Assembly: GCF_020532645.1 (NCBI RefSeq)
Contig: NZ_JAJAUZ010000003.1
Span: forward strand, 62,001 to 126,000
Direction: 5' to 3'
DNA: 64,000 nucleotides
From: Streptomyces bambusae
GTDB taxonomy: Bacteria > Actinomycetota > Actinomycetes > Streptomycetales > Streptomycetaceae
Positions 14,038 to 61,255 of this stretch are shown here, in pieces (position 1 is the stretch's first letter; every line of letters begins with the position of its first letter). The notes beneath the pieces are model-generated. The model did no database searches. It was not told the DNA's origin and saw only the letters and a program-made list of their open reading frames with translations. The position numbers and the translations under genes are program-made.

Positions 14038-14052
14038 GGGACTGATGGACCC
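14038..14052. promoter_or_regulatory. DevR/OsdR-type box upstream of the ABC operon
   Basis: GGGACTGATGGACCC fits GGGNC-N5-GNCCC and lies 58 bp upstream of the ATPase start at 13980. Confidence 0.45.
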
Positions 14053-14136
14053 CTTGTGGTGCCGTGGTGCGCAGCCACCCGGGCCGGGAGACGGTGCGAC
14101 GGGGCGTGCCCCACGGGCGGTTCCGTCCCCCCGAGT

Positions 14137-14173
14137 GGGCCGGTCGGCCCCCCGCGAGGGGACCACCCGGCCC
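14137..14173. promoter_or_regulatory. Tandem DevR/OsdR-type boxes between the ABC operon and the 97-aa gene
   Basis: GGGCCGGTCGGCCC (14137-14150) and GGGACCACCCGGCCC (14159-14173) start 22 bp apart, two helical turns, like tandem Dev boxes. They lie 92-128 bp upstream of ATG 14265. Confidence 0.5.
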
Positions 14174-14264
14174 TGTCCCGGCCGGCCCGGTGCCGACACC
14201 ATGGACGGCACCAGCCGGTGGACGTGCTGCCGCGATTCCTTCCGCACCGACGAGGCGAGCTGAC

Positions 14265-14558
14265 ATGGAACACACAGCGTGGACCACACCCGGGGTCTAC
14301 ACCGGCCCGGAAGGGGTGCTGACGGACCAGGGCGGGACGCTGTTCGGCGAGCTGACCGTGCACACCGTCTGGGAGGCCGGAGAGGCCCGTGTCGAGGTCC
14401 GTTACGAGGACGGCGGCGAGTGGTACGACCTGTCCGGGAGCCCCGTGGCCTGCCCGGATCCGCAGGCGGGCCGGTCCGTCCACCAGAGTGCCGTGGAGGC
14501 CGTGCGCGCGGGTGGCCCGGTGGGATTCACCCCGTGGGGGATCGTCAGGGCGGCCTGA
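14265..14558 (+). CDS. Uncharacterised 97-residue protein
   Basis: Starts at ATG 14265 with GAGG 9 nt upstream. Sequence is acidic and soluble, with no membrane segment, beginning MEHTAWTTPGVYTGPEG; a beta-rich middle (GELTVHTVWEAGEARVEVRYEDGGEWYDLSG, given here only as a landmark spanning residues 29-59) precedes a short Ala/Gly tail. I do not recognise the family. It is divergent from the ABC transporter and shares an intergenic region with three GGGNC..GNCCC boxes, so it may belong to the same stress regulon as the 34-61 kb island. Confidence 0.65.
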   Translation: MEHTAWTTPGVYTGPEGVLTDQGGTLFGELTVHTVWEAGEARVEVRYEDGGEWYDLSGSPVACPDPQAGRSVHQSAVEAVRAGGPVGFTPWGIVRAA

Positions 14559-14618
14559 AGCCCCCTGACGGCCCTCCGTACGGGGAGTGTCCCGTGCGTG
14601 ACGGGGGCGTGGGCGGGG

Positions 14619-14798
14619 TCAGCGGTGGTGTGGGTCCGGTTCGGCGGCAGGGAACGAGACCACCATGGTCAGTCCGCCCCCGGGCGTGTCCTCGGGCGCG
14701 AGGGTGCCGCCCATGGCTTCGGTGAGTCCGCGGGCCAGGGCGAGGCCGAGCCCGAGTCCCGTGCGTGTGTGCGCGGGGCGGGCCGTGGCCGGCCCGGG
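14619..14798 (-). pseudogene. 3' remnant of sensor kinase gene kdpD, fused behind kdpE
   Basis: After the kdpE stop (14799) the same minus-strand frame stays open for about 59 codons and reads TGLGLGLALARGLTEAMGG then TLAPEDTPGGGLTMVVSFP before a stop at 14619. This is the G2 box and C-terminal end of a histidine kinase catalytic domain, with wording typical of KdpD. The N-terminal sensor, USP-like domain, membrane helices, phospho-acceptor His and N-box are all absent. The remainder of kdpD has been deleted from this locus. Confidence 0.7.
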
Positions 14799-15485
14799 TC
14801 AGGGTTCGAAGCGGTAGCCCATGCCCGGTTCCGTGATCAGGTAGCGGGGGTGGGAGGGGTCCGTTTCCAGTTTGCGCCGGAGCTGGGCCATGTAGACGCG
14901 CAGGTAGTTGCTGTTCTCGCGGTACGTCGGGCCCCAGACCTCCAGGAGGAGGTGGCTCTGCGAGACCAGGTGGCCGGGATGGGTCACCAGGATCTCCAGG
15001 AGGTGCCATTCGGTCGGGGTGAGGCGTACGGCGACACCGTCCCGGTGGACCTTCTTCGCGAGGAGGTCGATGGTGAACCCGTCGGTCGTGACGGAGGTCA
15101 CGGCGTCGGTGCGGGCCGCCGGACCCGCCTGCCGGCGGAGGGCCGCGCGCAGCCGGGCCAGCAGCTCGTCCATGCTGAACGGTTTCGTCACGTAGTCGTC
15201 CGCGCCCGCGTCCAGCGCCCGGATCTTGTCCTCGGACGTGTGCCGGGCGGACAGGACGAGGATCGGCACCCGGCTCCAGCCGCGTACACCGTGGATCACC
15301 TCGACGCCGTCCATGTCGGGCAGCCCCAGGTCGAGGAGGACCAGGTCGGGTCTGCGGGCGGCCGCCAGGCGCAGTGCCGTACGGCCGTCGGACGCCTGCT
15401 CGACGTCGAACTTGCGCGCCTGGAGGTTGATCTTCAGCGCGCGGACGAGCTGGGGATCGTCCTCCACCACCAGCACCCGGGTCAT
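14799..15485 (-). CDS. kdpE: OmpR-family response regulator KdpE
   Basis: 228 residues from ATG 15485; an in-frame ATG at 15503 would add six residues. The receiver domain MTRVLVVEDDPQLVRALKI has the acidic pair, phospho-acceptor Asp in LVLLDLGLPDMDG and the conserved Lys in YVTKPFS. The OmpR winged helix ends LRRKLETDPSHPRYLITEPG, characteristic of KdpE. It activates kdpFABC under potassium limitation after phosphorylation by KdpD. Here it is the last intact gene after kdpC, and only a scrap of kdpD follows, so the regulator must use a kinase elsewhere or act unphosphorylated. Confidence 0.92.
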   Translation of the reverse strand: MTRVLVVEDDPQLVRALKINLQARKFDVEQASDGRTALRLAAARRPDLVLLDLGLPDMDGVEVIHGVRGWSRVPILVLSARHTSEDKIRALDAGADDYVTKPFSMDELLARLRAALRRQAGPAARTDAVTSVTTDGFTIDLLAKKVHRDGVAVRLTPTEWHLLEILVTHPGHLVSQSHLLLEVWGPTYRENSNYLRVYMAQLRRKLETDPSHPRYLITEPGMGYRFEP

Positions 15486-15510
15486 CGGTGTGCAGCCTTC
15501 CATCGTCGTT

Positions 15511-15550
15511 GAGCGGTACGGAGCGGTACGGAGCGGTACGGAGCGGAGCA
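15511..15550. repeat. 10-bp tandem repeat between kdpC and kdpE
   Basis: GAGCGGTACG occurs three times head to tail (15511-15540), with a degenerate fourth copy. It sits just upstream of the kdpE start and could vary in number or affect kdpE translation or transcription. Confidence 0.75.
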
Positions 15551-15618
15551 GTACGGCGCGGGCCGGCGGGGTACGAAGGTGCGCACCCCGCCGGCCCCGG
15601 TCCGTGCCGCGGGGAACA

Positions 15619-16335
15619 TCAGGGGCCGGTCAGGGCCTTGAGCGCTGTGTTCAGCTCCAGCACGTTGACGCGCGGCTCGCCGATGAAGCCGAGGGTGCGG
15701 CCCTCGGTGTGGTCGGCGACCAGCTTCTCGACCGCCTTCACGTCGAGCCCGTTCTTCTCAGCCACGCGGTGGATCTGGAGCTTCGCGTACGCGGGGGAGA
15801 TGTCGGGGTCGAGTCCGGAGCCGGAGGAGGTGACGGCGTCGGCGGGCACGTCGGCCGGCTTCACCGTGTACGTGGCCGTGGAGTTGTCGGCGATCACGGC
15901 CTCCTTGGCGGCGATCACCTGGGCGCACAGCGTGCCGTCCTCGGCGTTCTTGGTGCACTGGCCGCCGACGGCGCCGTTGTCGCCGGAGCGGTTGGTGGCA
16001 CCGGACAGGATCAGCGAGTACTGCGTGTTGACGCTGTTGGTGCCGAGGCCGTTGGAGGGGCGGGGCTGGAACCACTTCAGGTCCGGGCGGGCCGCTTCCT
16101 CGGCGTCGTTCGGGTCCTTCTTCGGCAGGTGGTACGTCTGGCCGATGAGGGAGGAGCCGACGACCTGCCCGCTCTTGTCCTTGATCTCCGAGCCGTTGGC
16201 CTTGTCGTGGAAGAGGGCCTGGGCGATGCCCGTGACGGCGAGCGGGTAGAGGACGCCGCAGATCACGGTGAGGACGAGGAGCGCCCGCAGTCCGGCGCCG
16301 AGCAGGCGGGCGGTGGTGCTCACGGAAGTGTTCAT
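15619..16335 (-). CDS. kdpC: K+-transporting ATPase subunit KdpC
   Basis: 238 residues from ATG 16335, starting 6 nt after the kdpB stop. One N-terminal membrane helix (GLRALLVLTVICGVLYPLAV) precedes an extracytoplasmic domain with SSLIGQ, WFQPRPS, a GSGLDPDISP motif and the C-terminal LGFIGEPRVNVLELN, all diagnostic of KdpC. It assists high-affinity K+ loading of KdpFABC. An insertion with two Cys residues (GGQCTKNAEDGTLC) lies in the middle of the domain. Confidence 0.96.
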   Translation of the reverse strand: MNTSVSTTARLLGAGLRALLVLTVICGVLYPLAVTGIAQALFHDKANGSEIKDKSGQVVGSSLIGQTYHLPKKDPNDAEEAARPDLKWFQPRPSNGLGTNSVNTQYSLILSGATNRSGDNGAVGGQCTKNAEDGTLCAQVIAAKEAVIADNSTATYTVKPADVPADAVTSSGSGLDPDISPAYAKLQIHRVAEKNGLDVKAVEKLVADHTEGRTLGFIGEPRVNVLELNTALKALTGP

Positions 16336-16341
16336 GACGGG

Positions 16342-18486
16342 TCAGCCGATTCCGGGGATGAGGGAGATGAGGAGGTCGATGAGCTTGATGCCGATGAACG
16401 GGGCGATCAGGCCGCCGAGTCCGTAGAGGCCGAGGTTGCGGCGGAGCATCCTGTCGGCGCTGGTCGGCCGGTACTGCACGCCCTTGAGGGCGAGCGGCAC
16501 GAGGGCCACGATGATCAGCGCATTGAAGATGACGGCGGACAGGATCGCGGACTCGGGGGAGGCCAGGCCCATGATGTTGAGCTTGTCGAGGCCCGGGTAG
16601 GCGACCGCGAACATCGCGGGGATGATCGCGAAGTACTTGGCGACGTCGTTGGCGATGGAGAAGGTCGTCAGCGCGCCCCGGGTGATGAGGAGCTGCTTGC
16701 CGATCTCGACGATCTCGATGAGCTTGGTCGGGTTGGAGTCGAGGTCGACCATGTTGCCGGCCTCCTTGGCGGCCGACGTGCCCGTGTTCATCGCCACGCC
16801 GACGTCCGCCTGGGCCAGCGCGGGCGCGTCGTTCGTGCCGTCACCGGTCATCGCGACCAGCTTCCCGCCCGCCTGCTCCCGCTTGATGAGGGCCATCTTG
16901 TCCTCGGGGGTGGCTTCGGCGAGGAAGTCGTCGACGCCCGCCTCCTCGGCGATGGCCTTCGCGGTGAGCGGGTTGTCACCGGTGATCATGACGGTCTTGA
17001 TGCCCATGCGGCGCAGCTCGTCGAACCGCTCCCGCATGCCCTCCTTGACCACGTCCTTGAGGTGGATGACGCCCAGGACCCGGGCGCCGTCGGCGTCTTC
17101 GACGGCCACCAGCAGCGGGGTGCCACCGGCCTGCGAGATCGTGTCGGTGAGCGCCTGCGCGTCCTCGGCCACCCGGCCGCCCTGGCCTTCCACCCAGGCG
17201 ACGACTGATCCGGTCGCGCCCTTGCGGACCTTGCGGCCGTCGACGTCGACTCCGGACATGCGGGTCTGGGCGGTGAACGCGATCCACTCGGCCTGGCCGA
17301 GTTCTCCCTGGTGGCGTTCGCGCAGCCCGTACTTCTCCTTCGCGAGGACCACGATCGAGCGGCCCTCGGGGGTCTCGTCGGCGAGGGAGGACAGCTGGGC
17401 GGCGTCGGCGAGTTCGGCGGCCGTGGTGCCCTTGACCGGGACGAACTCGGCGGCCTGCCGGTTGCCGAGGGTGATGGTTCCGGTCTTGTCGAGCAGCAGC
17501 GTGGACACGTCGCCGGCGGCCTCGACCGCCCGGCCCGACATCGCGAGTACGTTGCGCTGCACGAGCCGGTCCATGCCGGCGATGCCGATCGCGGACAGCA
17601 GCGCGCCGATGGTGGTCGGGATCAGGCAGACCAGGAGTGCGGTCAGCACGATCAGCGACTGCTTGGCTCCGGCGTAGACCGCGAAGGGCTGGAGGGTGAC
17701 GACGGCGAGCAGGAAGACGATGGTGAGGGACGCCAGCAGGATGTTGAGGGCGATCTCGTTGGGGGTCTTCTGCCGGGCGGCGCCCTCGACCAGGTTGATC
17801 ATCCGGTCGATGAACGTCTCGCCGGGCTTCGTCGTGATCTTGATGACGATCCGGTCGGAGAGGACCTTCGTACCGCCGGTCACGGCGCTGCGGTCGCCGC
17901 CGGACTCGCGGATGACGGGCGCGGACTCGCCGGTGATCGCGGACTCGTCCACGGAGGCGACACCTTCGACGACGTCCCCGTCGCCGGGGATGATGTCGCC
18001 GGCCTCGCAGACCACCAGGTCGCCGATGCGCAGCTCGGTGCCGGGTACGGACTCCTCGCTTTTGCCGTCCTGGGTGAGGCGGCGGGCGACGGTGTCGGTC
18101 TTGGCCTTGCGCAGGGTGTCGGCCTGGGCCTTGCCGCGGCCTTCCGCGACCGCCTCGGCGAGGTTGGCGAAGACGGTGGTCAGCCACAGCCAGACGGTGA
18201 TCGCCCAGCCGAACCAGTCCGTCGGGTCCTTCAGCGCCAGCACCGTCGTGACGACGGAACCGACCAGGACCACGAACATGACCGGCGACTTCACCATCAC
18301 GCGCGGGTCGAGCTTGCGGACCGCGTCCGGGAAGGACTTCAGCAGCTGCTTGGGGTCGAAGAGGCCGCCGCCCACGCGGCCCTCGGCCGGCTTGTGGCCG
18401 GTGGGCACGTCCTGGTGCGGAGCGCGGGTGGGCGCGGCTTCCTTGGTCGGGGGCATGGCGTCCTGCTTCTTTACGTCGGTGGTCAT
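16342..18486 (-). CDS. kdpB: K+-transporting ATPase ATP-binding subunit KdpB
   Basis: 714 residues from ATG 18486, overlapping the kdpA stop by ATGA. P1A-type ATPase: TGES loop, phosphorylation site D333 in [10 protein letters not shown], KdpB-type [19 protein letters not shown] in the membrane region, and [18 protein letters not shown] in the P-domain hinge. It forms the energy-coupling subunit of KdpFABC. The segment 16676-16892 is almost identical in DNA to the orphan kdpB at 24.4 kb, which suggests gene conversion. Confidence 0.97.
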
Positions 18487-20147
18487 GACGCCAGCCCTTC
18501 GGCGAGCGGACCCAGCGCGAGTGCCGGGAAGTAGGTCAGACCGGTGATGATCATGATGGTGCCGACGAGCAGACCGGTGTAGAGCGGCTTGTCGGTGCGC
18601 AGGGTGCCGGCCGTCTCGGGGACGGGCTTCTGCTCGGCGAGCGAGCCGGCCAGCGCGAGGACGAACACCATCGGCAGGAAGCGGCCCAGCAGCATCGCGA
18701 TGCCGATGGTCGAGTTGAACCACTGCGTGTCGGCGTTCAGGCCCGCGAACGCTGAGCCGTTGTTGTTGGCGCCGGAGGTGTAGGCGTACAGGATCTCGGA
18801 GAACCCGTGCGCGCCGGTGTTGGTCATCGAGTTCGCCGGGGTGGGCAGGGCCATCGCGGCGGCGGTGAAGCACAGGACGAGCGCGGGGGTGATGAGGATG
18901 TAGCAGGCCGCGAACTTGATCTCGCGGGTGCCGATCTTCTTGCCGAGGTACTCGGGCGTACGGCCGACCATCAGGCCGGCGATGAACACGGCGATGACCG
19001 CCATGATCAGCATGCCGTAGAGGCCGGAGCCGACGCCGCCGGGGGCGATCTCGCCGAGCTGCATGCCGAGCAGCTGGATGCCGCCGCCGAAGCCGGTGTA
19101 CGAGGAGTGGAAGGAGTTCACCGCGCCGGTGGACGTCAGCGTCGTCGCGACGGAGAAGATGGCGGAGGCGCCGATGCCGAAACGCGTCTCCTTGCCCTCC
19201 ATCGCACCGCCCGCGGCCTCGAACGCCGGCCCGTGGCCAGCGAATTCGGTCCACATCATGAGCGCGGTGAAACCGATCCAGATGACCGCCATCGTGGCGA
19301 GGATCGCGTAGCCCTGCCGCAGGTTTCCGACCATCCGGCCGAAGGTGCGGGTGAGGGAGAACGGGATGACGAGGATCAGGAAGATCTCGAAGAGGTTCGA
19401 GAAGGGCGTCGGGTTCTCGAAGGGGTGGGCCGAGTTGGCGTTGAAGTAGCCGCCGCCGTTCGTGCCCAGCTCCTTGATGACCTCCTGCGAGGCCACCGCG
19501 CCGCCGTTCCACTGCTGGCTGCCGCCCGTGAACTGGCCGACCTCGTGGATTCCGGCGAAGTTCTGGATCGCGCCGCACGCGACGAGCACGAGCGCGCCGA
19601 TGACTGCCATGGGCAGCAGGATCCGTACGGTGCCTCGCACCAAGTCGGCCCAGAAGTTGCCGAGTTCACCGGTACGGGAACGGGCGAAGCCGCGTACGAG
19701 GGCGACGGCGACCGCCATGCCGACGGCCGCGGACACGAAGTTCTGCACCGCCAGGCCGCCGGTCTGCACGACGTGGCCCATGGCCTGCTCGCCGTAGTAC
19801 GACTGCCAGTTGGTGTTGGCGACGAAGGACGCGGCGGTGTTGAAGGCCTGGTCCGGGTCGATGGACTGGAAGCCCAGCGAGCCGGGCAGCACACCCTGCA
19901 GCCGCTGCAGCGCGTAGAGGAACAGGACGCTCACGGCCGAGAAGGCCAGCACCCCGCGCAGGTACGCGGGCCAGCGCATCTCGGTGCCGGGGTTGGCGCC
20001 GATCGCCCGGTAGATCCACTTCTCCGGCTTGTAGTGCTTCTCGGAGGAGTAGACGCGGGCCATGTAATCGCCGAGCGGGCGGTAGGCCAGCGCGAGCGCG
20101 CCGATCAGGGCGAGCAGCTGGAGCACACCAGCGGTCTGGGGACTCAT
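18483..20147 (-). CDS. kdpA: K+-transporting ATPase channel-like subunit KdpA
   Basis: 554 residues from ATG 20147 ([20 protein letters not shown]). About ten membrane helices in the superfamily-of-K+-transporters layout, with selectivity-filter-like loops including [40 protein letters not shown] and [14 protein letters not shown]. It binds and translocates K+ in KdpFABC. It begins 8 nt after the kdpF stop and overlaps kdpB by 4 nt, so the operon is tightly coupled. Confidence 0.97.
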
Positions 20148-48254: not shown

Positions 48255-48312
48255 GCTCCCAGCGTGCGGCGTGAAGACGTCGTGCGGGCGGGACCACACG
48301 GGTCCTCGGTAG

Positions 48313-48326: not shown

Positions 48327-48436
48327 GGTCGCCGACCCGACAGGCCCATGCGGAACGGCCTGCGGCGGACCCACAGTGGTGGCACAACCGCACATGGCAG
48401 CGCCCGAACGCGGCGCCGGAGAGTCTGGAGCACCTC

Positions 48437-48940: not shown

Positions 48941-48981
48941 ACGTGCGGCCCCGAGGACCGACGTCCGTTCCCAGCCCTGAG

Positions 48982-49030
48982 CCGACCCGCCGACCCGCCG
49001 ACCCGCCGATCCGCCGACCGGCGGGTCGGC
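48982..49030. terminator. Repeat-derived 12-bp stem between convergent genes
   Basis: CCGACCCG is repeated three times in tandem from 48982, with two degenerate copies. The third copy (48997-49008) pairs perfectly over 12 bp with 49019-49030. Likely bidirectional terminator between flavodoxin and formate dehydrogenase. Confidence 0.6.
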
Positions 49031-49057
49031 GCACGCCCGGGGACGGTCGTACGGCCG

Positions 49058-51838
49058 TCAGGTGCCGTCACCCCGCTGCGGCTGCCTCCCGCCGGTCAGC
49101 ACACGGACGGCGGTGACCTTGTACTCCGGGCAGGACGTGACCGGGTCGGCGTGGCCGGAGGTGAGCCGGTTCACGCCGCTCGCGGGGAAGTGGAAGGCGC
49201 AGAACACCTGGCCGGGGGCGGTCTCCGTGGTGACCCGGGCGGTCAGGCGGGCCCGGCCGTGGCGGCTTTCCACCGTCACCCGCTCGCCGTTGCGGACCCC
49301 GTGCCGCGCCGCGTCGTCCGGGTGGACGTCCAGGCGGTCCACCGGGTCCAGGGCGCGGTTGCCGCTGCGCCGGGTCATGCTCCCGGAGTTGTAGTGGGCC
49401 CAGCGCCGGCCGGTGACCAGGATCAGCGGATAGGCGTCGTCCGGAGATTCCCCGGGCGGCAGGTACGGCACGACCGCCAGGTGGGCGAGCCCGTCCGCCG
49501 TGGCGAACCGTTCCTCGTACAGCTTCGGAGTGCCGGGACCGGCAGGGTCCGGACAGGGCCAGGCCACGGCCCCCTCGCGGTCGAGGCGTTCGTGTGTCAG
49601 ACCCGCGAACACCGGTGCGGTGCGGGCGCACTCGGCGAGCGCTGCCGCGGGCGTCGGGCATCCGAGGTCACGCCCCATCGCCGCTGCGACCGCATGGAGG
49701 GCGTCGAAATCGGTGCGGGCCCGGCCGGGCGGCCGGATCGCGGGCCGGACCCGCTGGAAGCGCCGGTCGAAGTTGACGAAGGTGCCGTCCTTCTCCAGCC
49801 AGGACGCCGCCGGCAGGACGAGGTCGGCTCGACGGGTGGTCCGTGACGGGAACAGTTCGCTGCAGACGACGAACGGGCAGGCATCCAGAGCCCGTTCCAC
49901 GCTTCCGGTGTCGGGGTCGGTGGCACAGACGTCCTCGCCGAGGATCCACAGCGCCCGCAGCGTGCCGGCGCGTGCGGCGGCGAACATCTCCGGGATCCGC
50001 AGGCCGGGCCGCGCCGGGACGGGCACGCCCCAGACCGCCTCGGCCCGGGCCCGGGCCGCCGCATCGGTCACCTTGCCGTATCCGGGCAGGACGTCGGGGA
50101 GGGCCCCCATGTCGGACGCCCCCTGGACGTTGTTCTGGCCGCGCAGCGGGTTCACGCCGTGGCCCCGGGCGGTGCCCACGGCTCCGCGCAGGACGGCGAG
50201 GTTGGCCAGCGTCCGCACCCCGTCGGTGCCGTGCAGGTGCTCGGTGACGCCGAGACCGTAGACGATGGCGGGACGTTCGGCCCGCCCGTACAGCCGGGCG
50301 GCGGCGACCAGATCCGCCGCCGGTACGCCCGTGAGGTCCGCGACGCGCTCGGGGGTGTAGGCGGAGACCAACTCGGCGAGTTCGGTCACGCCGCTCGCAC
50401 GCTCCCGCAGGAACGCGTGGTCCACCAGGTCCTCGGCGAGCAGGACGTGCGCCAGCCCGTGGAAGAGCGCGACGTTGCTCCCGGGCCGCGGGCGCAGGTG
50501 GACGTCCGCGTGCCGGGCCAGGCCCACCTCGCGGGGGTCGGCGACCACGAGCCGGGCTCCGCGCAGTGCACTGTTCAACAGCCGTGCCCCGACGACCGGG
50601 TGGGCTTCGACGGGGTTGGCGCCTACCACCAGCAGGCAGTCGGACCGGACCACGTCGTCGAAGGGGTCGGTACCGCCGGAGAGGCCGAAGGAGGCCACCA
50701 GCCCGGCGGCCGAGGGTGCGTGGCACAGCCGCGAGCAGTTGTCGATGTTGTTGGTGCCGATCACGGTCCGCGTGAACTTCTGGAAGAGGTAGTTCTCCTC
50801 GTTGGTGGCACGGGCGGAGGAGATGGCCGCCACCGAGTCCGGACCGCCCGCGGCGACGGCCTCCGTCAGGCGTCTGGCGAGGTGGGCGACGGCGGTGTCC
50901 CAGTCGACGGGCACGAGCCGCCCGTCCTGACGCAGCAGCGGAGTGGTGAGACGCTCCGGCGAGACGGCGAACCCGTGCGCGAAGCGGCCCTTCGCGCAGG
51001 CGTGCCCGTGGTTGACGGGCCCGTCCGGCGCGGGCAGCACGGCCGCGACCGCTCCGTTGCGGACGGCCACGTCGAGTGTGCAGCCGACCCCGCAGAAGCC
51101 GCAGGTCGTACGGATGACGTCGGGCGCGGCAGGGTCGCCGGGACCCGGCCGCAGGAGTTCCCCGGACGTGAGGCCGCCGTCGGTTCCGGGACCGGTGATG
51201 GCTCCCGTGGGGCAGGTGTCGACGCAGCCTCCGCACGACACGCAGTCCGACTCCGCCCACGGCCCGCCCGTTCCGGGTGCGACCACGGTGTCCGGGCCGC
51301 GTCCGGTCAGGGTGATCGCGAAGGTTCCCTGGACCTCGGCGCACATGCGGACGCACCGTCCGCAGGCGATGCACAGGTCCCGGTCGAGCCGCACGTACGG
51401 GTGCGAGTCGTCCCGGCCCCGGCCGCCGGCTCCGCGCGCCTCGTCCGGTCCGAGCCCCAAGGTCCGGCAGACCCGGGCCAGTTCGGAGGGTGATCCGGGG
51501 CCGAGGGCGTGCGGAGGAAGGGCCGAGACGATCGTCCGTACGGCGTCCCGGCGCAGCTCCGCGAGTCCGGCGGCGTCGGTCGACACCCGCGCCCCGGCTG
51601 TGGCCGGTGTGACGCATGCGGCGACCAGCCGCCCGTTCTCCCGCACCAGGCAGGTGCGGCACGAACCGGCCGGGGTCAGACGGGAGTCGGAGCAGAGGGC
51701 GGGAAGGTCCACGCCGGCAGCGGTGGCGGCGTCGAGGAGTGATGCTCCCTCGGAGACCTCGACGGTCAGGTCGTCGACGTCGAGAGCCACCGGGCGCCCG
51801 GCCCCGGTCACTGCCCCCGCCCGGCTGGGTCCGGTCAT
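49058..51838 (-). CDS. NAD-linked formate dehydrogenase, molybdenum/tungsten alpha subunit
   Basis: 926 residues from ATG 51838, overlapping the beta-subunit stop by ATGA. Domains in order: 2Fe-2S ferredoxin-like (about 15-85; CSDSRLTPAGSCRTCLV), His-Cys region, two 4Fe-4S motifs (CIACGRCVRMCAEV and CVSCGGCVDTCPTGAI), the catalytic-domain 4Fe-4S site (CGFCGVGC), the molybdopterin domain with active-site C372 in DNCSRLCHAPS, and a C-terminal molydopterin-binding domain (YNSGSMTRRSGN). Cys, not selenocysteine. Oxidises formate to CO2 with electrons passed to the beta subunit and NAD+. Accessory fdhD and cofactor genes are not in the window. Confidence 0.93.
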   Translation of the reverse strand: MTGPSRAGAVTGAGRPVALDVDDLTVEVSEGASLLDAATAAGVDLPALCSDSRLTPAGSCRTCLVRENGRLVAACVTPATAGARVSTDAAGLAELRRDAVRTIVSALPPHALGPGSPSELARVCRTLGLGPDEARGAGGRGRDDSHPYVRLDRDLCIACGRCVRMCAEVQGTFAITLTGRGPDTVVAPGTGGPWAESDCVSCGGCVDTCPTGAITGPGTDGGLTSGELLRPGPGDPAAPDVIRTTCGFCGVGCTLDVAVRNGAVAAVLPAPDGPVNHGHACAKGRFAHGFAVSPERLTTPLLRQDGRLVPVDWDTAVAHLARRLTEAVAAGGPDSVAAISSARATNEENYLFQKFTRTVIGTNNIDNCSRLCHAPSAAGLVASFGLSGGTDPFDDVVRSDCLLVVGANPVEAHPVVGARLLNSALRGARLVVADPREVGLARHADVHLRPRPGSNVALFHGLAHVLLAEDLVDHAFLRERASGVTELAELVSAYTPERVADLTGVPAADLVAAARLYGRAERPAIVYGLGVTEHLHGTDGVRTLANLAVLRGAVGTARGHGVNPLRGQNNVQGASDMGALPDVLPGYGKVTDAAARARAEAVWGVPVPARPGLRIPEMFAAARAGTLRALWILGEDVCATDPDTGSVERALDACPFVVCSELFPSRTTRRADLVLPAASWLEKDGTFVNFDRRFQRVRPAIRPPGRARTDFDALHAVAAAMGRDLGCPTPAAALAECARTAPVFAGLTHERLDREGAVAWPCPDPAGPGTPKLYEERFATADGLAHLAVVPYLPPGESPDDAYPLILVTGRRWAHYNSGSMTRRSGNRALDPVDRLDVHPDDAARHGVRNGERVTVESRHGRARLTARVTTETAPGQVFCAFHFPASGVNRLTSGHADPVTSCPEYKVTAVRVLTGGRQPQRGDGT

Positions 51839-53529
51839 GACAGCCAGCCTTCCGGGAACCGGGGGCCGTAGGCCCGGGCGAGGCTCCGCACGGCTGCCGG
51901 CAGCCGCTTCCCGAACGCACACAGGCTCGCCTCTTCCAGCACGTGCGCGAGCCGGGTCCAGTCCTCGCCGGGGTCGCCCCCCGCTGCCGCCAGCTCCAGC
52001 CCCGCGCGGGTGCCGACGCGGCAGGGCGAGCAGGCGCCGCAGCTCTCCGCGGCTGCGAACTGCCAGATGTGGCACAGGACATCGGCCGGATCGAGGGAGT
52101 CGTCGAAGGCGACGAGCCCGCCGTGACCGAGGGCGGCTCCCCGGCCGGACAGGTCCGCGTCGGTCAGCGCCACGTCCAGGCGGTCCCCGGGCAGGAACCC
52201 GCCCAGCGGGCCGCCGATCTGCACGACGGCCGGCCGTGCGCCGTCCTTCAGCCCGCCGCCCAGACCCGACACGATGTGCTCGACGCGGGTGCCGAGTTCG
52301 ACCTCGTACACGCCCGGCCGGGCGAAGCGCTCCGAGAGGCTGACGAGCTTGGTGCCGGGTTCGGAGGGCGTCCCGCGCCGGGCGTACGCGGCACCGCCCC
52401 GGCTGACGATCCAGGGCAGTGCGGCCAGCGTCTCCACGTTGCCCACCACCGTCGGGGCGTTCCACAGTCCCTGCTCGGTCGGGTACGGAGGCCGCGGGCG
52501 GGCGCATCCCCGACCGCCTTCGAGGCTTGCGATCAGTGCTGTCTCCTCGCCGGCGACGTAGGACCCGTGGCCGGCGCACACCACGATGTCCAGAGCACGG
52601 CCCGTGCCGTGCACGTCGGACCCGAAATGCCCCTGCAAGTAAGCCTCTTCACAGGCACTGCGCAGCGCGGAGAGCGCCGCCGGGTACTCGGAGCGGACCA
52701 GGACCCGGCCGCTGGCGGCCCCGCAGGCGAAGCAGGCCAGTGCCAGGCCGGCGAGGACGCGTTGCGGGTGCTGCTCCATCAGGAGCCGGTCGGCGTACGA
52801 ACCGGGGTCCCCCTCGTCGCCGTTGGCCACGACCACGGGGGCGGCCGACCGGGGGACCGCCCGCCATTTCGAGGCCACGCGGTATCCGGCACCGCCGCGG
52901 CCCCGCAGGCCGGACGCGTCCACCTGGGTGTGGACCTCGGCCGGCGACGAAGCCGTGACGGTGCGCCGCCAGACCTCCCACGGGTCTTCCGTCTCCGGGC
53001 CGCTCCCCAGGAGCACCGGGTCGCCGGTGGTGTCGGCACCGGGAATCGGCGGCGCCGCGGGCGGCACCCGCCCCGCAAACTGGCCGGTCAGCGTGGGGCC
53101 CGTGCAGGCCGTGTCCCCGTCGAGCGCTGCGGGGGCCGCATAGCAGTGCCCCAGGCAGCGCACGGCCTGGACCGAGACCGCCCCGTCGGGGGAGACTTCG
53201 CCGACGCGGACGCCCAGCTGCCGTTCCACGGCGTCGAGCGGTCGCCCGCCGGTCGCCGCGAAGCATGCCGCGCCGGTGCAGGCACGGACGTGGCGCCGGC
53301 CGTGCGGGGCTGCCAGGTCGGCGTAGAACGTGGCGGGTCCGAGCGCCGAGGCGGCGGGCAGGCCCAGCCGGTCCGCGACGGGCCGGGACCACTGCGTGCC
53401 GTCGCTCGGGTTCCCGAGCCGGGCCCGCGCCAGGTCGTCCAGCAGCCGGTCGCCCGGCCGCCCCCTGCGTGCCGCGAGCGCGCGGAGCGCGTCGAACCGG
53501 GCCCCGTCGGACCCCTGCCGCTCGTCCAT
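51835..53529 (-). CDS. Formate dehydrogenase beta subunit (NuoE-NuoF fusion type)
   Basis: 564 residues from ATG 53529. The N-terminal NuoE-like 2Fe-2S domain has CTGAACF and RCLGHC; the NuoF-like part has the FMN/NADH loop GLRGRGGAGY, NGDEGDPGSYADR and the GEETALIASLEG motif; a SLBB segment and the 4Fe-4S site ESCGACSPCRVGTRAG..CAFGK follow. This is the diaphorase module of soluble NAD-dependent formate dehydrogenases. A DevR-type box is 85 bp upstream, so formate oxidation may be induced under low oxygen. Confidence 0.93.
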   Translation of the reverse strand: MDERQGSDGARFDALRALAARRGRPGDRLLDDLARARLGNPSDGTQWSRPVADRLGLPAASALGPATFYADLAAPHGRRHVRACTGAACFAATGGRPLDAVERQLGVRVGEVSPDGAVSVQAVRCLGHCYAAPAALDGDTACTGPTLTGQFAGRVPPAAPPIPGADTTGDPVLLGSGPETEDPWEVWRRTVTASSPAEVHTQVDASGLRGRGGAGYRVASKWRAVPRSAAPVVVANGDEGDPGSYADRLLMEQHPQRVLAGLALACFACGAASGRVLVRSEYPAALSALRSACEEAYLQGHFGSDVHGTGRALDIVVCAGHGSYVAGEETALIASLEGGRGCARPRPPYPTEQGLWNAPTVVGNVETLAALPWIVSRGGAAYARRGTPSEPGTKLVSLSERFARPGVYEVELGTRVEHIVSGLGGGLKDGARPAVVQIGGPLGGFLPGDRLDVALTDADLSGRGAALGHGGLVAFDDSLDPADVLCHIWQFAAAESCGACSPCRVGTRAGLELAAAGGDPGEDWTRLAHVLEEASLCAFGKRLPAAVRSLARAYGPRFPEGWLS

Positions 53530-53613
53530 GCCTCCTCCACCGAGAGAAGAGCCTGCTCACCACCACCCTGACCCGTCCCGCCGCGGAGCGCGAGTGCCGT
53601 CCGGGGTCCTGAG

Positions 53614-53628
53614 GGGACCGTTCGGCCC
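53614..53628. promoter_or_regulatory. DevR/OsdR-type box upstream of the formate dehydrogenase operon
   Basis: GGGACCGTTCGGCCC fits GGGNC-N5-GNCCC, 85 bp upstream of the beta-subunit start; the identical 15-mer occurs at 61241. Confidence 0.55.
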
Positions 53629-53773
53629 TGGCGGACCGCAGCGACCCGTGGTGTCATGAAAGTGACGGAAGGAGCCCCTGAGAGGATGCGGAGGAGCGGC
53701 TGACGGCCGTGCACCGCACGATCAGGATCCGCGAGAAGCGGGTGGGCTCCTTCCGCCGACGCGTCCGCGCACG

Positions 53774-54226
53774 TCAGGTGCGTGGACCGATTTCGTCCTG
53801 CGGGCCGGGAGGCTCGTCGAGGATGCTCCAGGCGACCGGACCGAGCAGGTCCGCGAGCCGGCGGAAGACATCCATCAGGAGGTCGTCCAGGGACAGCATC
53901 CCCACGACGTGCTCCCCGTCGAGGACGGGGAGGCGCCGGACGCCGCTGCGGCGGAACGTCCGGTAGGCGCTCTCGACGTCGTCGGCAGCGCCCACGGTCA
54001 CGGCCGGACTGCTCATGATCTTCCCGACCGGCTCGCCGTGGCCGAGCGCGACCGTCACGGCACGCAGCGCGACGTCACGATCGGTGACGACACCGCGCGG
54101 CTCTCCATCTTCCACGACGACCAGGCATCCGACGCCGTGGACCTCCATCAGCCTGGCCGCCTCACGGATGGTCGTCGTGGGAGTGACGGAGACAGCGGGC
54201 ACGGACATCGCGGCGGACACTTTCAT
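53774..54226 (-). CDS. CBS-pair protein, hypoxic response protein 1-like
   Basis: 150 residues from ATG 54226. Two CBS motifs, MSVPAVSVTPTTTIREAARL..GVVTDRDVALRAV and [33 protein letters not shown], without a BON domain. Size and wording resemble Mycobacterium Hrp1 (Rv2626c). Last gene of a three-gene CBS operon running from 55607. Confidence 0.87.
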   Translation of the reverse strand: MKVSAAMSVPAVSVTPTTTIREAARLMEVHGVGCLVVVEDGEPRGVVTDRDVALRAVTVALGHGEPVGKIMSSPAVTVGAADDVESAYRTFRRSGVRRLPVLDGEHVVGMLSLDDLLMDVFRRLADLLGPVAWSILDEPPGPQDEIGPRT

Positions 54227-54304
54227 GTCGGACTCCTTTCCGCGGACGCGGGTCTTCGGGGGCCATGGAAGGTCCGGCCGCCGGGGGAGGGGCCGGCCCC
54301 TGGG

Positions 54305-54964
54305 TCAGCCGCCCGTACCGGTGTCGTCCGTCTCCCAGGCGAGCTTCTCCGTCACGCGGACGACGCCGTCGACGGTGCGGCACAGCCGTTCGATCACGGG
54401 GATGAGGCTCCGGAAGCCCACCGCCCCGCGCAGGGTCACCTGTCCGTCCACCACGTCGACCGACACGGCGGCGGGATCGAGGTGCAGGGTGCGGTCGAGC
54501 ACGTCCCCGGTGATCTCGTGGCGGATGGCGTCGTCGTCGCGGAGGAAGACGCGCAGCAGGTCCCCCCGGGTGACGATGCCGACGAGGACGTCGCCCTCGT
54601 CGACGACGAGCAGCCGCTTGACGCGCTGGCTCTCCATGAGCCGGGCGGCTTCCGCGACGGTCCAGTCCGGCCGCGCGCAGACCGCCGGTCCCGACATCAG
54701 CTCCTCGGCCCGAGTGCCGGCGGCCTTGCCGCTCTCCCACGGCTCGGGCTTCGGCAACGACCGGAACCAGTCGCCCTGGTCGGCGGGTTTCGGGAGCAGG
54801 TCGCCCTCGGAGATCACCCCGAGCGGATGCCCGGCGGGGTCGGTGACCGCCACGGCCGACACGTCGTGCTCGGCGAGCGTGCGGACGACGTCCTTGAACG
54901 TCGCGTGCCGGGGGACGGTGACGACCTCGCGGGTCATCAGTTCGCGCACTTCTCGGTGCCTCAC
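54305..54964 (-). CDS. CBS-pair protein with BON domain
   Basis: 219 residues from GTG 54964. CBS1 MTREVVTVPRHATFKDVVRT, CBS2 MSGPAVCARPDWTVAEAARL..GIVTRGDLLRVFLRDD and a BON tail (LDPAAVSVDVVDGQVTLRGA). A longer acidic/aromatic insert (KPADQGDWFRSLPKPEPWES) separates the CBS motifs. Middle gene of the three-gene operon; 40 nt from its upstream neighbour. Confidence 0.88.
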   Translation of the reverse strand: MRHREVRELMTREVVTVPRHATFKDVVRTLAEHDVSAVAVTDPAGHPLGVISEGDLLPKPADQGDWFRSLPKPEPWESGKAAGTRAEELMSGPAVCARPDWTVAEAARLMESQRVKRLLVVDEGDVLVGIVTRGDLLRVFLRDDDAIRHEITGDVLDRTLHLDPAAVSVDVVDGQVTLRGAVGFRSLIPVIERLCRTVDGVVRVTEKLAWETDDTGTGG

Positions 54965-55004
54965 GGTGTCTTCCTTCCCGTCGTGTCAGTGGCCTGGTGC
55001 TCCG

Positions 55005-55607
55005 TCAGGCCGGTACGCGCGCGTGCAGCCGGGCCGTGACGTCGACGACGCCGGGGACGGCTCGCGCGATGTGGACGAGCACGTCCGTCAGCGCCGGGTC
55101 GGGGACCTCGCCCTCCAGCCGTACGACTCCGTGGTCGACGTGGATGTGCAGGAGGGCCGATCCGGCGGGGACCAGCCGTGCCGTGAGCAGTTCCCGCAGT
55201 TCCTCGGCGACGTCCGCGTCGGGGCGGAGGTAGATCTTCAGCAGGTCGCCGCGGCTGACGACGCCGACGAGCCGGTCCTCGTCGTCGACGACCGGCAGCC
55301 GCTTGAAGGGGCCCTTCGCCATCAGCCGCGCGGCGCCGGCGATCGTGGTGCCCACCGGTACGGTGACCGGTGGTGCCGTCATCAGCTGCTCGGCCGTGGC
55401 GTGGTGCGACTCGTCCGTGCCCGCCGCCATGGCCAGGAGGTCGGCCTCGGAGACGACGCCGATGAGCCGGCCTCCGGCCGACACGACGGGCAGGGAGCCG
55501 AAGCCCCACCGCTGCATGGTCGAGACGACGTCGTGGACCGGTGCTCCGGGGCCCACGGAGACGACGGCGTGCGTCATGACGTCGTCCACGGTGCGCAAGT
55601 GCTTCAT
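55005..55607 (-). CDS. CBS-pair protein with BON domain
   Basis: 200 residues from ATG 55607 with GGAGG 4-5 nt upstream. CBS1 MTHAVVSVGPGAPVHDVVST, CBS2 MTAPPVTVPVGTTIAGAARL..GVVSRGDLLKIYLRPD, BON tail ALLHIHVDHGVVRLEGEVPD. First gene of the operon; DevR-type boxes are 63-99 bp upstream. Confidence 0.88.
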   Translation of the reverse strand: MKHLRTVDDVMTHAVVSVGPGAPVHDVVSTMQRWGFGSLPVVSAGGRLIGVVSEADLLAMAAGTDESHHATAEQLMTAPPVTVPVGTTIAGAARLMAKGPFKRLPVVDDEDRLVGVVSRGDLLKIYLRPDADVAEELRELLTARLVPAGSALLHIHVDHGVVRLEGEVPDPALTDVLVHIARAVPGVVDVTARLHARVPA

Positions 55608-55669
55608 GGTTCCTCCAGGGGCTGAGGTCCGTGCCCTCCCAGCGTGGAGTCGGCCGTGCGGCGGGAGTA

Positions 55670-55706
55670 GGGCCGACCGGACCCCGCTCCTGGGCTGACC
55701 GGTCCG
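55670..55706. promoter_or_regulatory. Tandem DevR/OsdR-type boxes upstream of the CBS triple operon
   Basis: GGGCCGACCGGACCC (55670-55684) plus a weaker GGGCTGACCGGTCCG (55692-55706), 22 bp apart. Confidence 0.5.
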
Positions 55707-55830
55707 GATTCCGCACGAGCTGCCGCTGTCCCTCCGGCGGGCGTCCGGGTCGCCGTGCGCGACGGCGCCCCTCCCCGGCGGCAGTGCGGCGGGTACGAGG
55801 CGTTCCGAGCCCAAGAGCGCGCGCGGCCCG

Positions 55831-56541
55831 TCAGTGCCCGGGGTGCCGGTCCGGGCCCTCGTGCCGCTGACTGTGGACCTGGGCCGCGATGACCGCGGCC
55901 TGGACGCGGCGCTCGACTCCCAGCTTGCCGAGCAGCCGGGAGATGTGGTTCTTGACGGTCTTCTCGGAGAGGTAGAGCCGCTTGGCGATCTGCTGGTTGG
56001 TGAGTCCTTCGCCGATCAGGTCCAGGACGGACCGCTCCCGTTCCGAGAGGTCGGCCAGCCGGGTGCCTTCGGGCTCCTGCACCGGCTCGGGGTCCCGCAG
56101 GGAGTGCATCAGGCGGGCGGTGGTGGCCGGGTCGAGCATGGACTGGCCGGTGGCGACCGTCCGCACGGCGGAGACCAGGTCGGAGCCCTTGATCTGCTTC
56201 AGCACGTATCCGGCGGCCCCGGCCATGATCGCGTCCAGCAGGGCGTCCTCGTCGTCGAACGAGGTCAGCATCAGGCAGGCCACGTCCGGCATCCGGGAGC
56301 GCAGCTCACGGCAGACGGCGATGCCGTTGCCGTCCGGCAGCCGGACGTCGAGCACGGCGACGTCCGGCCGCAGCGCCGGTCCGCGGGCCAGCGCCTGTTC
56401 CGCGGTGGCCGCTTCGCCCACGACGGTGATGTCCGGTTCGGCATCGAGGAGGTCGTGCAGCCCGCGCCGCACCACTTCGTGGTCGTCCACGAGGAACACC
56501 CTGATCGGCACCCCTGGTGAGGTGCCCTCTGCGTCGGCCAT
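55831..56541 (-). CDS. devR: NarL-family response regulator, DevR/OsdR-like
   Basis: 236 residues from ATG 56541. The receiver domain [20 protein letters not shown] with phospho-acceptor D65 in [14 protein letters not shown], and the LuxR helix-turn-helix [39 protein letters not shown] are almost word for word those of M. tuberculosis DosR. A variable 11-residue N-terminal extension and a 19-residue tail are added. It is the probable regulator that binds the GGGNC..GNCCC boxes across this window. The likely partner kinase is at 44 kb. It follows a CBS-BON gene by about 120 bp. Confidence 0.92.
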
Positions 56542-56662: not shown

Positions 56663-57307
56663 CTACGCGGCCGAGGCGACCACCCCGTCGAGCTCCATCC
56701 GGACGTCCACGACACCCTCGACGGCGCGGACGGCGCGTGCGAGCAGGGGGACCAGCGCCCGGTCGCGAAGCGGGCCCCGGAGGGTGACGACGCCGTCCCG
56801 CACCGAGAAGTCCAGGGAGACGCCGGGTGCGAGTTCGGCCAGGACGACCTGGCGGATCTCCTCCTCCAGCTCCTCGTCCGGACGGAGGAACACCTTCAGG
56901 AGGTCGCTGCGGCTGACGACGCCCTCCAGCATGCCGAGGGCGTTCACCACCGGCAGGCGTTTGACCTGCTTGCGCGCCATGATCCGGGCGGCTTCGGCGA
57001 CGGTGGCGTCCGGGTGGACGGTGACGGCCGGGCTCGACATCAGCTCCTCGGCGAGGACGGCTCCGGCCTTGGACGCCTCGTCCAACTGCTCCGGCAGCCG
57101 GGGGTGCTCGCGGCGGAACTCCTCCTTCGGCAGGAGGTCGGCCTCGGAGACGACTCCCACGACGCGGCCCTCTCCTTCGAGCACGGGGACCGCGCTCACC
57201 TTCCACTCGTGCATGAGCTCGACGATCTCCTTGTACGACGCCTCGCGGCCGATGGCGACGGCGGTGTGCGTCATCACGTCACTGACGGTGTAGCGAGCTG
57301 CGGGCAT
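56663..57307 (-). CDS. CBS-pair protein with BON domain
   Basis: 214 residues from ATG 57307 with GGAG upstream. CBS1 [20 protein letters not shown], an acidic insert ([20 protein letters not shown]), CBS2 [39 protein letters not shown] tail [20 protein letters not shown]. Lies directly upstream of devR on the same strand, so the two may be co-transcribed from a promoter carrying DevR-type boxes. Confidence 0.88.
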
Positions 57308-57419: not shown

Positions 57420-57454
57420 GGGCCTTGTGGGCCGGGGCGGGGGCCGACCGGCCC
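57420..57454. promoter_or_regulatory. DevR/OsdR-type boxes upstream of the CBS-devR unit
   Basis: GGGCCGACCGGCCC (57441-57454) fits GGGNC-N4-GNCCC; a weaker GGGCC-N4-GGGCC copy starts at 57420, 21 bp away. They are 113-147 bp upstream of 57307, suggesting autoregulation of devR. Confidence 0.5.
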
Positions 57455-57458
57455 ATGG

Positions 57459-59292: not shown

Positions 59293-59362
59293 GGCCCCAT
59301 CCTGGGCGCCTACCGTCACCAGCAGAAGTGCCCACCTACTGGATGCGTATAAAGGAAAACTG

Positions 59363-60271
59363 TTGATCGACGTACAGCGGCTCCGGGTCCTGCGGGCGGT
59401 CGCGGAGCACCACAGCTTCAACCGGGCGGCCGCCGCCCTGCACCTGACCCCGTCGGCCGTCTCCCAGCAGGTCGCGGCCCTGGAACGCAGCCTCGGCGCG
59501 CAGGTCGTCGTACGCAGCACCCGCGGCGTGACGCTCACCCGGGCCGGCCGGATCATGGTCGGGGCTGCGGAGTCGGTCGCCGCCGAACTCGCCCACGCGC
59601 AACGGCAGGTGGACCGGCTGGGCAGCGGCCGCAGCCAGTTCACCCTGGCCACGTTCACCAGCGGCGGCCGCCTCCTGCTGCCGGGCGCGCTGCCGCGTCT
59701 GACGGCCGCCCATCCAGGCACCGTCGTCCACGTGAAGGAGGCCGAGCCGGAGGACAGCCTGCCGCTGGTCCGGCGGGGTGCCGCGGATGCCGCCCTCGCC
59801 TATCACTTCGACGGCCCGCTCCCCGGCGGTCCGGGCGGGGCCGCGGGCGTGGAGTGGATCCCGCTGATGGCGGACCCGCTGCACGCCGTCCTGCCCGACG
59901 GCCACCCGCTGGCCGGCCGCGCGGCCCTGGACATCGCCGAACTGGCCGACGAGCCCTGGGTGTTCGGCTGCCTCAAGACGGAGGCGTACCTGCACCGGTA
60001 CGCCGAACGGGCCGGCTTCACCGCGGAAGTGCGCGGCACGACGACGGACTACTTCTTCGCGTGCTCGCTGGTCGCGTCCGGTGTCGGGGTCTCGCTGATC
60101 CCCTCCATCGCCCTGCCGCCCGCCCTGCCGGGGCTGTGCGTCGTGCCGGTCGGCCCGCCGGCCCCCGCCCGCCACCTCGGCATCGCCGTGCCGCGGCGGG
60201 GCGGTCATCCTGCGACGGAGACGCTGGTCGAGGCGCTGCGAGAGCAGGCGGCGGCGGTCGCGGACGGCTGA
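59363..60271 (+). CDS. LysR-family transcriptional regulator
   Basis: 302 residues from TTG 59363, chosen because AAAGGA sits 6 nt upstream and family similarity starts there (LIDVQRLRVLRAVAEHHSFN). HTH RAAAALHLTPSAVSQQVAAL; substrate-binding domain from about 90 (FTLATFTSGGRLLLPGALPR). An ATG-initiated extension from 59273 would overlap the divergent SDR gene. Likely regulates that SDR and itself through the 70-bp gap. Confidence 0.88.
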   Translation: MIDVQRLRVLRAVAEHHSFNRAAAALHLTPSAVSQQVAALERSLGAQVVVRSTRGVTLTRAGRIMVGAAESVAAELAHAQRQVDRLGSGRSQFTLATFTSGGRLLLPGALPRLTAAHPGTVVHVKEAEPEDSLPLVRRGAADAALAYHFDGPLPGGPGGAAGVEWIPLMADPLHAVLPDGHPLAGRAALDIAELADEPWVFGCLKTEAYLHRYAERAGFTAEVRGTTTDYFFACSLVASGVGVSLIPSIALPPALPGLCVVPVGPPAPARHLGIAVPRRGGHPATETLVEALREQAAAVADG

Positions 60272-60278
60272 CCCGGAT

Positions 60279-61157
60279 TCAGGCGTGTGCCACCACGGCC
60301 ACCGGCGCGTCGGCGTGGTGCATCACCGCGTGGGTGATGGCGCCGATGTGGGTGCCGACTCCCGAGTGGCGGATGCGGCGGCCGACCACGACCAGGGCCG
60401 CATCCGAGGCCGCGTCCAGGATCTGGATGGCCGGTTGGCCGATGGCGGTGCGCGCGTCGACGGTGAGCTGCGGGTACTTCTGCCGCCAGGGGGCCAGCAG
60501 CTCCCGCAGGGTGGTCTCCAGCCCGTGCCCCATCTCCGCCTGGACGCCGGGGTCGAGGGCCGGTGCGTACGACAGGATGGGCGGCGGGGACCAGCCGTGG
60601 ACCACGACGAGCGGGCAGGCGTGCCGGTCCGCTTCCTCGCAGGCGAAGCCGAGCAGCCGCTCGCAGTCGCTGTGCAGGTCCACGCCGAGCACGACGGGCC
60701 CGCCCTGCCGGGACCGGCCGGAGCCGGAGGTCCGGGCGCCGGCCGCGCGGACGAGCACGACGGGGGTCTCGGTCAGCGGGATGGTGTCCGACCCGGTGGA
60801 ACCGACGAAGAAGCCGGCGACCGGACCGAGACCGCGCGAGCCGAGCACCAGCAGATCCGCGTCCTCCGCAGCCGACGCGAGGGCGGTGGCAGCCGCGAGG
60901 CCGTCGATCCGCCGGATGCGGACGTCCAGGCCGGGATGCCCGGCCGACACTCGGTCCCAGGCCTGCGCCAGGAGGTCGTCGGCCCAGCGGTGGCGTGACA
61001 CGGGGAGCGGCGCCGCGAACGGCGCGTTCTGCGGCCAGTCGTCGGCGTGGACGAGTTCCAGCACGGCGCCGCGCAGCTCGGCTTCGCGGGCGGCCCAGTC
61101 GGCGGCGGCGAGGCCGGCCTTCGACCCGTCCAGACCTGCCGTGATCCGGTTCGACAT
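60279..61157 (-). CDS. Universal stress protein, tandem domains
   Basis: 292 residues from ATG 61157 with CAGGAGG 8 nt upstream. USP1 ITAGLDGSKAGLAAADWAAR..LVLGSRGLGPVAGFFVGSTG is canonical; USP2 VVLGVDLHSDCERLLGFACE..VVVGRRIRHSGVGTHIGAIT is altered in the ATP loop. Convergent with LysR (7 bp between stops). DevR-type boxes at 61222-61255 lie upstream. Confidence 0.91.
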   Translation of the reverse strand: MSNRITAGLDGSKAGLAAADWAAREAELRGAVLELVHADDWPQNAPFAAPLPVSRHRWADDLLAQAWDRVSAGHPGLDVRIRRIDGLAAATALASAAEDADLLVLGSRGLGPVAGFFVGSTGSDTIPLTETPVVLVRAAGARTSGSGRSRQGGPVVLGVDLHSDCERLLGFACEEADRHACPLVVVHGWSPPPILSYAPALDPGVQAEMGHGLETTLRELLAPWRQKYPQLTVDARTAIGQPAIQILDAASDAALVVVGRRIRHSGVGTHIGAITHAVMHHADAPVAVVAHA

Positions 61158-61221
61158 GGTGTGCCTCCTGTGCGGGTGAGTGGGTGGTTCCAGGTTCCGC
61201 CGCTCGCGATCGCCGCCGGGA

Positions 61222-61255
61222 GGGCCGAGCGGTCCCATCGGGGACCGTTCGGCCC
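61222..61255. promoter_or_regulatory. Tandem DevR/OsdR-type boxes upstream of the USP gene
   Basis: GGGCCGAGCGGTCCC (61222-61236) and GGGACCGTTCGGCCC (61241-61255), 19 bp apart, 65-98 bp upstream of the USP start at 61157. Confidence 0.55.

Follow-up and report, generated by a model that had tools for sequence, protein, structure and literature searches.

The 64,000-nucleotide stretch of the Streptomyces bambusae genome analysed here (the window; C92:62001-126000 of an assembly of 8.30 Mb in 168 contigs) encodes a response regulator and a sensor kinase of the OsdR/DevR and OsdK/DevS families, and an initial annotation had placed a common DevR/OsdR-type operator before many of its genes. Gene coordinates are those of our own models, called from codon-position GC content. 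Three models were corrected by hand: the formate dehydrogenase alpha gene fdhA was extended to 51838, a gene at 34521-35120 was added and the start of a P-type ATPase gene was set at 35113. The two regulatory genes are:

55831 to 56511, minus strand: OsdR/DevR-type response regulator, receiver plus LuxR-type helix-turn-helix domain (Pfam Response_reg and GerE)
44055 to 45794, plus strand: OsdK/DevS/DosT-type sensor kinase with the domain order GAF-GAF-HisKA_3-HATPase (Pfam)

The closest solved structure to the regulator is DevR (3c3w, E 6e-77), and the K-x-x-K-N stretch, to which we assign a recognition role, is kept. The proposal of a DosR-like regulator at 55.8 kb was correct as to family; the gene spans 55831-56511 rather than 55831-56541. 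The first GAF domain of the kinase matches DosT (2vzw, E 4.8e-53) and DevS. It retains the histidine of an HPPM motif and the tyrosine of an LYLT motif, presumably the haem histidine and the distal tyrosine, and both are conserved in all three OsdK-type kinases of the genome. Haem binding by the kinase is thus predicted.

W2, the matrix used to score candidate operators (boxes), is symmetric, 16 bp long and built from 261 intergenic sites at 80 osdR loci of other genomes; these sites had been picked with a first matrix derived from 26 published sites of Streptomyces coelicolor. The core reads GGNCC-GNNC-GGNCC within a frame of 16 bp, the middle base being preferentially G or A in one half-site and C or T in the opposite one, and strong boxes resemble AGGGCC-GNNC-GGCCCT. 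The boxes of the window, with the hexamers resembling a -10 element that were found near them, are:

14136 to 14151: strong, W2 17.2; faces a small gene at 14316; hexamer 14197-14202
25129 to 25144: strong, W2 14.7; before a GNAT gene; absent from the earlier list
34344 to 34359: strong, W2 18.6; distal position, before an Rv1733c-family gene; hexamer 34404-34409
39139 to 39154: strong, W2 18.4; proximal to a CBS-BON gene (38416-39015); hexamer 39111-39116
39220 to 39235: middling, W2 6.4; faces a row of two universal stress protein (USP) genes, P-type ATPase, DUF1918 and osdK (39326-45794); hexamer 39280-39285
45847 to 45862: middling, W2 6.0; 20 bp upstream of the next box
45867 to 45882: strong, W2 15.0; proximal to SHOCT and PPOX genes; hexamer 45905-45910
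48312 to 48327: strong, W2 16.3; common to a divergent flavodoxin gene (48437) and a nicotinate phosphoribosyltransferase (NAPRT) fragment (48178); hexamers 48372-48377 and 48261-48266
53614 to 53629: strong, W2 17.5; upstream of the genes for the NuoE/F-like and formate dehydrogenase alpha subunits; hexamer 53565-53570
55669 to 55684: strong, W2 14.7; proximal to a CBS-BON gene (55005-55607); hexamer 55641-55646
55691 to 55706: middling, W2 6.8; 22 bp upstream of the box at 55669
57440 to 57455: strong, W2 17.2; before a CBS-BON gene (56663-57307) and osdR
61221 to 61236: W2 9.7; proximal to a USP gene (60279-61157); hexamer 61192-61197
61241 to 61256: strong, W2 12.8; distal, 20 bp from the box at 61221, same hexamer

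The initial annotation had listed 16 sites of the form GGGNC-N4/5-GNCCC. Thirteen of them match that form exactly, while 45868, 55692 and 57420 deviate. Ten score at least 9.7 with W2 (14137, 34345, 39140, 45868, 48313, 53614, 55670, 57441, 61222 and 61241) and three are middling at 6.0-6.8 (39221, 45847, 55692). The remaining three, 14038, 14159 and 57420, reach at most 2.9 and are likely chance words of GC-rich DNA, and the strong site at 25129 (W2 14.7) had been overlooked. Placement 60-160 bp upstream of a gene holds for most sites, but 34345 lies 176 bp before its Rv1733c-family gene. An ABC-transporter gene at 13980 is not a convincing target, since the box at 14136 shows promoter spacing in one direction alone, that of the small gene at 14316. 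The protein encoded there (14316-14558), which a strong box faces, has no Pfam match and occurs in 17 of the 41 genomes searched, this one included.

The ten intergenic boxes with W2 of at least 12 are, in our reading, likely operators of an OsdR/DevR-type oxygen-responsive regulon, which the sequence comparisons below support. At this threshold all ten window sites are intergenic, and no site was found in a background sample of 400 kb from the same genome (20 stretches of 20 kb, hand-picked from large contigs). Rebuilding the matrix without the nine closest relatives again gave ten window sites against none. The contrast is smaller at lower cut-offs: at W2 of at least 8 the window holds 11 intergenic and 2 coding sites and the sample 12 and 12, and with the published-site matrix at 11 or more the figures are 10 and 2 in the window and 6 and 13 in the sample. 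Run over the 80 loci from other genomes at a cut-off of 14, the published-site matrix finds 238 sites between genes and 14 within them (0.824 versus 0.011 per kb).

A search of the whole genome with the strict word GGGCCG-DH-CGGCCC returned 32 places, compared with 21 for a reversed control. Thirteen of the 32 have a GC centre, are runs of GGCCGGCC and were set aside, leaving 19. Ten of these fall within 71 kb, C92:76137-147116 (five in the window and five in its right flank; one coding), a clustering with a binomial P of about 2e-16 for a stretch that was drawn after the fact. Three more, including one in coding sequence, stand next to the osdKR paralogs of C139 and C155. A second word, GGACCG-DH-CGGCCC, has five places on C92 within or beside the window; all eight of its further places without a GC centre were checked, and -10 spacing at W2 of at least 11 was found at none. 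The comparison of intergenic with coding hit rates for the plain words came out less clearly. In the window the N4 word (a 4-bp spacer between the half-sites) occurs 6 times between genes and 3 times within them and the N5 word 16 times and once, several places occurring in both, and the nominally intergenic N5 word at 51132 falls within fdhA after the full-length gene call. In the 400-kb sample the densities per kb are 0.204 intergenic and 0.110 coding for N4, and 0.149 and 0.107 for N5. The plain word pattern alone says less than the matrix. That the palindromes are merely GC-rich words that happened to fall between genes seems scarcely credible: loose GGGNC-N4-GNCCC words are indeed frequent, with 813 matches in the genome (below the 1427 of the reversed control), but chance would have to explain the contrast between ten matrix sites in the window and none in 400 kb, the intergenic position of the motif at 80 loci elsewhere, and the promoter spacing described below.

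The frame of the box bears on a further claim, that the N4 or N5 spacing distinguishes these operators from the mycobacterial one. All five well-scoring N5 sites (39140, 53614, 55670, 61222 and 61241) hold the constant 16-bp frame and appear one base longer because of a flanking G or C, so that no longer spacing is needed. The variable spacing was also tried as a separate operator at the 80 loci and rejected: among N5 words without an N4 reading, the constant frame is present in 43 of 123 intergenic versus 5 of 106 coding ones. The frame leaves unexplained the other 80 intergenic N5 words of these loci and the window words at 14038, 14159, 39178 and 45847. The observation that boxes often come in pairs starting 19-23 bp apart is largely borne out. 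Spacings of about 20-23 bp are common across the 80 loci, where partner boxes at 20, 21, 22 and 23 bp number 28, 43, 31 and 15, compared with about 3 per bp otherwise. The window pairs are 45847/45867, 55669/55691 and 61221/61241, and two more occur beyond its right edge at 3555/3576 and 15749/15770 of the stretch L114, which starts at C92:126001.

Promoter geometry gives the boxes a direction. In 396 box-to-gene directions at the 80 loci, a hexamer of the form xAxxxT starts at +30 from the box centre in 76 cases and at +31 in 59 (135/396); a further 91 directions have it in a second peak at +51, +52 and +53 (24, 33 and 37 hexamers), the background being about 6 at other offsets. If the A of the hexamer is taken as the usual -11 base, the centre of a proximal box lies near -42.5 and that of a distal box near -64. 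For distal boxes, a partner 20-22 bp downstream scores at least 4 in 32% of cases, versus none at +33 to +35. The relaxed hexamer and its offsets were chosen after inspection of the 80 loci and then applied to the S. bambusae genome, in the window and the stretches L114, L115, L117 (C139:1-20000) and L118 (C155:1-20000) only, with the cut-off lowered to W2 of at least 8. There the hexamer was present in 22 of 34 directions that face a gene and in 0 of 14 that do not; at sampled facing positions the spacing occurs in 779 of 7183 (10.8%). Counted by box, 19 of 24 in these stretches and 9 of 11 in the window have it, so that most boxes keep a constant spacing to the predicted promoter of a stress-related or metabolic gene. 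Strict TANNNT and TTGAC/TTGTC elements were searched for at fixed offsets from the box and none were found.

A box near -42.5 would overlap the -35 region, where repressors may bind as well, and the boxes could in principle be repressor rather than activator sites. We consider this very improbable: the weak -10-like hexamer and the lack of TTGAC/TTGTC at a fixed offset fit activator-dependent promoters, and DevR boxes over the -35 region are described as activating (PMC3029386).

Several points weigh against an OsdR-type regulon as read here. The gene models are our own calls, and a matrix seeded with published OsdR sites can find only sites of that kind. Strong boxes also occur in coding sequence (one in C92:1-60000, one in C92:126001-181000 and two in the C139 stretch). 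The six other places of the strict word comprise two that are coding, two with no facing gene and two without -10 spacing, and the second word shows no genome-wide excess (26 places, control 29). Neither hexamer position is occupied in 170 of the 396 directions at the 80 loci, and osdR promoters themselves make up 58 of the 216 distinct first genes that have the spacing there. In the window, the strong boxes at 25129 and 57440 have no -10-like hexamer at the expected distance, and the latter precedes osdR. Because the two boxes of a pair use one hexamer, the 34 directions do not count as independent observations. Finally, three regulators of the genome have the same DNA-contact residues, which makes the assignment of the boxes to the window's own regulator tentative.

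These additional regulators form the basis of the most serious alternative. The genome encodes two further close OsdR copies on C139 and C155 (76% and 71% identical), each with a close copy of the kinase, giving three OsdK-OsdR sets in all, and a third copy on C1 (62%). The recognition stretch is EKTVKN in all three close regulators and EKTIKN in the C1 protein, and boxes precede the paralogs' own genes, with W2 16.4 at C139 and 24.1 at C155. In both sets the box stands before the regulator gene; C155 matches the published consensus exactly, and its regulator is adjoined by a gene of the Acg/Rv3131 family. In a tree of the regulators the window copy falls outside a well-supported (100/99) group of 43 rows that contains the C139 and C155 proteins. 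The C1 protein does likewise, although its placement and that of one very long row (L074_17) are unsure, the C1 row also being long; S. coelicolor OsdR is not in the tree. The boxes might therefore be bound mainly by the C139 or C155 paralog, or by the distant C1 protein, with the window regulator employed elsewhere. We regard this as unlikely, if far from negligible. The window regulator retains the DNA-contact stretch, and between the boxes near window-type and C139-type regulators no position differs significantly after eight tests (smallest p 0.021), box densities being 1.30 and 1.13 per intergenic kb, respectively. The C1 protein is OsdR-like, and from its neighbouring genes we take it to be the counterpart of the orphan regulator SCO3818; its 20-kb neighbourhood holds no box with W2 of at least 12. 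In S. coelicolor, SCO3818 is phosphorylated by OsdK according to a review (PMC9739842).

We return to the OsdR-type regulon as the preferred explanation. The boxes, their intergenic placement, their conservation, the -10-like spacing of most of them and the families of the regulator and the kinase are read directly from the DNA, and together they support the common operator and regulon claimed initially. For binding, activation, the signal and the acting regulator copy, we infer the following scheme. A fall in oxygen or a rise in nitric oxide would lead the GAF-domain kinase (44055-45794) to phosphorylate the window's own regulator (55831-56511) or either of the two close paralogs. The phosphorylated protein would bind a box near -42.5, often together with a second one about 21 bp upstream, and would touch RNA polymerase where a -35 element would otherwise lie. 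The genes switched on would include those for universal stress, CBS-BON and Rv1733c-family proteins, flavodoxin and formate dehydrogenase.

Comparable systems are well described. Urem et al. (PMC5069765) report that OsdR of S. coelicolor binds the same consensus in electrophoretic mobility-shift assays, and the OsdR (SCO0204)/OsdK (SCO0203) regulon described there shares the 16-bp consensus AGGGCCGATCGGCCCT and the regulator and kinase families with the window. Its predicted targets near osdR include universal stress, pyruvate phosphate dikinase (PPDK) and nitroreductase genes, and such genes likewise lie near boxes here. That source gives an osdR-osdK operon on one strand, whereas in the window the two genes are convergent and 10 kb apart. 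Unlike the S. coelicolor regulon, the present one has boxed formate dehydrogenase and CBS-BON genes, and the genome has three osdKR sets. The DevR/DosR regulon of Mycobacterium tuberculosis likewise has a regulator and a haem kinase of these families. A further likeness to that regulon is the presence near boxes of genes of the Acg/Rv3131 family and of the family of Rv1733c, itself a target of DevR. The core differs, being GGGCC-GNNC-GGCCC here and GGGAC-N4-GTCCC in mycobacteria; both halves of the strict mycobacterial core are present in 0 of the 9 N4 words of the window. The tandem layout, in contrast, does not set these boxes apart as had been supposed, because adjacent primary and secondary boxes are reported for mycobacteria (PMC3029386, PMC7018068). 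In M. tuberculosis the proximal one is reported to overlap the -35 region (PMC3029386), much as in the layout predicted here.

The roughly 10 kb between osdK and osdR (45795-55830) carry four sets of boxes and hold genes for SHOCT and PPOX proteins, the NAPRT fragment, flavodoxin, three CBS proteins and formate dehydrogenase. Every one of the nine closest relatives compared has osdK adjoining osdR tail to tail. The 29 loci whose regulator is of the window type divide into 12 with an adjacent tail-to-tail osdK, 2 in which one or two genes intervene, 5 with a kinase that is further off and divergent, and 10 with no kinase in the stretch examined. No gene at the 80 osdR loci has the formate dehydrogenase genes of the window as its best match. 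These genes and the Rv1733c-family gene are:

49058 to 51838, minus strand: formate dehydrogenase alpha subunit, fdhA (NCBIfam TIGR01591, 746.5 bits, cut-off 666), with iron-sulphur domains at the N-terminal end
51835 to 53529, minus strand: NuoE/NuoF-like flavin and iron-sulphur subunit, from domain matches, under the NuoF cut-off
34521 to 35120, plus strand: Rv1733c family protein (NCBIfam NF050032, 97.7 bits, cut-off 80)

The NAPRT gene (47198-48178) covers the last two thirds of its family profile, and the N-terminal part is seemingly missing. Elsewhere in the window, kdpA, kdpB-like and kdpC genes (14799-20126) stand beside an OmpR-type response regulator that may be KdpE; the gap between kdpC and this regulator is too small for a kdpD sensor gene. 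To the right of the window, a very strong box with W2 21.0 (L114:11661, C92:137661) falls within the 3' end of a PPDK-type gene, roughly 100 bp ahead of another gene; the start of the latter, judged by eye, is similar to that of the window's flavodoxin. On another contig, a box-like word with W2 19.5 (L123:2352, C110:44352) is found 29 bp before a gene for a rifamycin-inactivating phosphotransferase. It lacks promoter geometry and probably has no relation to the regulon; an inverted repeat nearby resembles what we take to be a rifamycin-associated element.

Work on S. coelicolor has already described the regulon, its consensus and the binding of OsdR (PMC5069765), and the window is mostly a new example of them; paired boxes and overlap with -35 are likewise known from DevR (PMC3029386, PMC7018068). 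The present analysis adds a promoter geometry for Streptomyces at base-pair level, the interpretation of the N5 sites by a constant frame, the wiring with three copies and the boxes at the formate dehydrogenase genes. A survey of the Streptomyces literature by titles and abstract openings, with subscription journals largely outside it, returned no paper that deals with the geometry of OsdR promoters or links OsdR to formate dehydrogenase. The result is a promoter-level picture of a Streptomyces OsdR-type regulon, with the box frame, the spacing of the second box and predicted start sites, and it suggests that the DevR-type layout of mycobacteria also exists in Streptomyces. More tentatively, three parallel OsdK-OsdR sets responding to oxygen or nitric oxide and using one operator code with a fixed geometry might form a multi-sensor hub, whose regulon would grow by capturing pre-wired modules such as the formate dehydrogenase segment. 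The finding raises the question of how one operator code is divided among three related two-component sets. A close OsdR (E at most 1e-88) is encoded in 106 of 151 Streptomyces genomes, this one included, with one copy in 63, two in 31 and three in 12 (none in 45), so the question of operator sharing is a general one in the genus.

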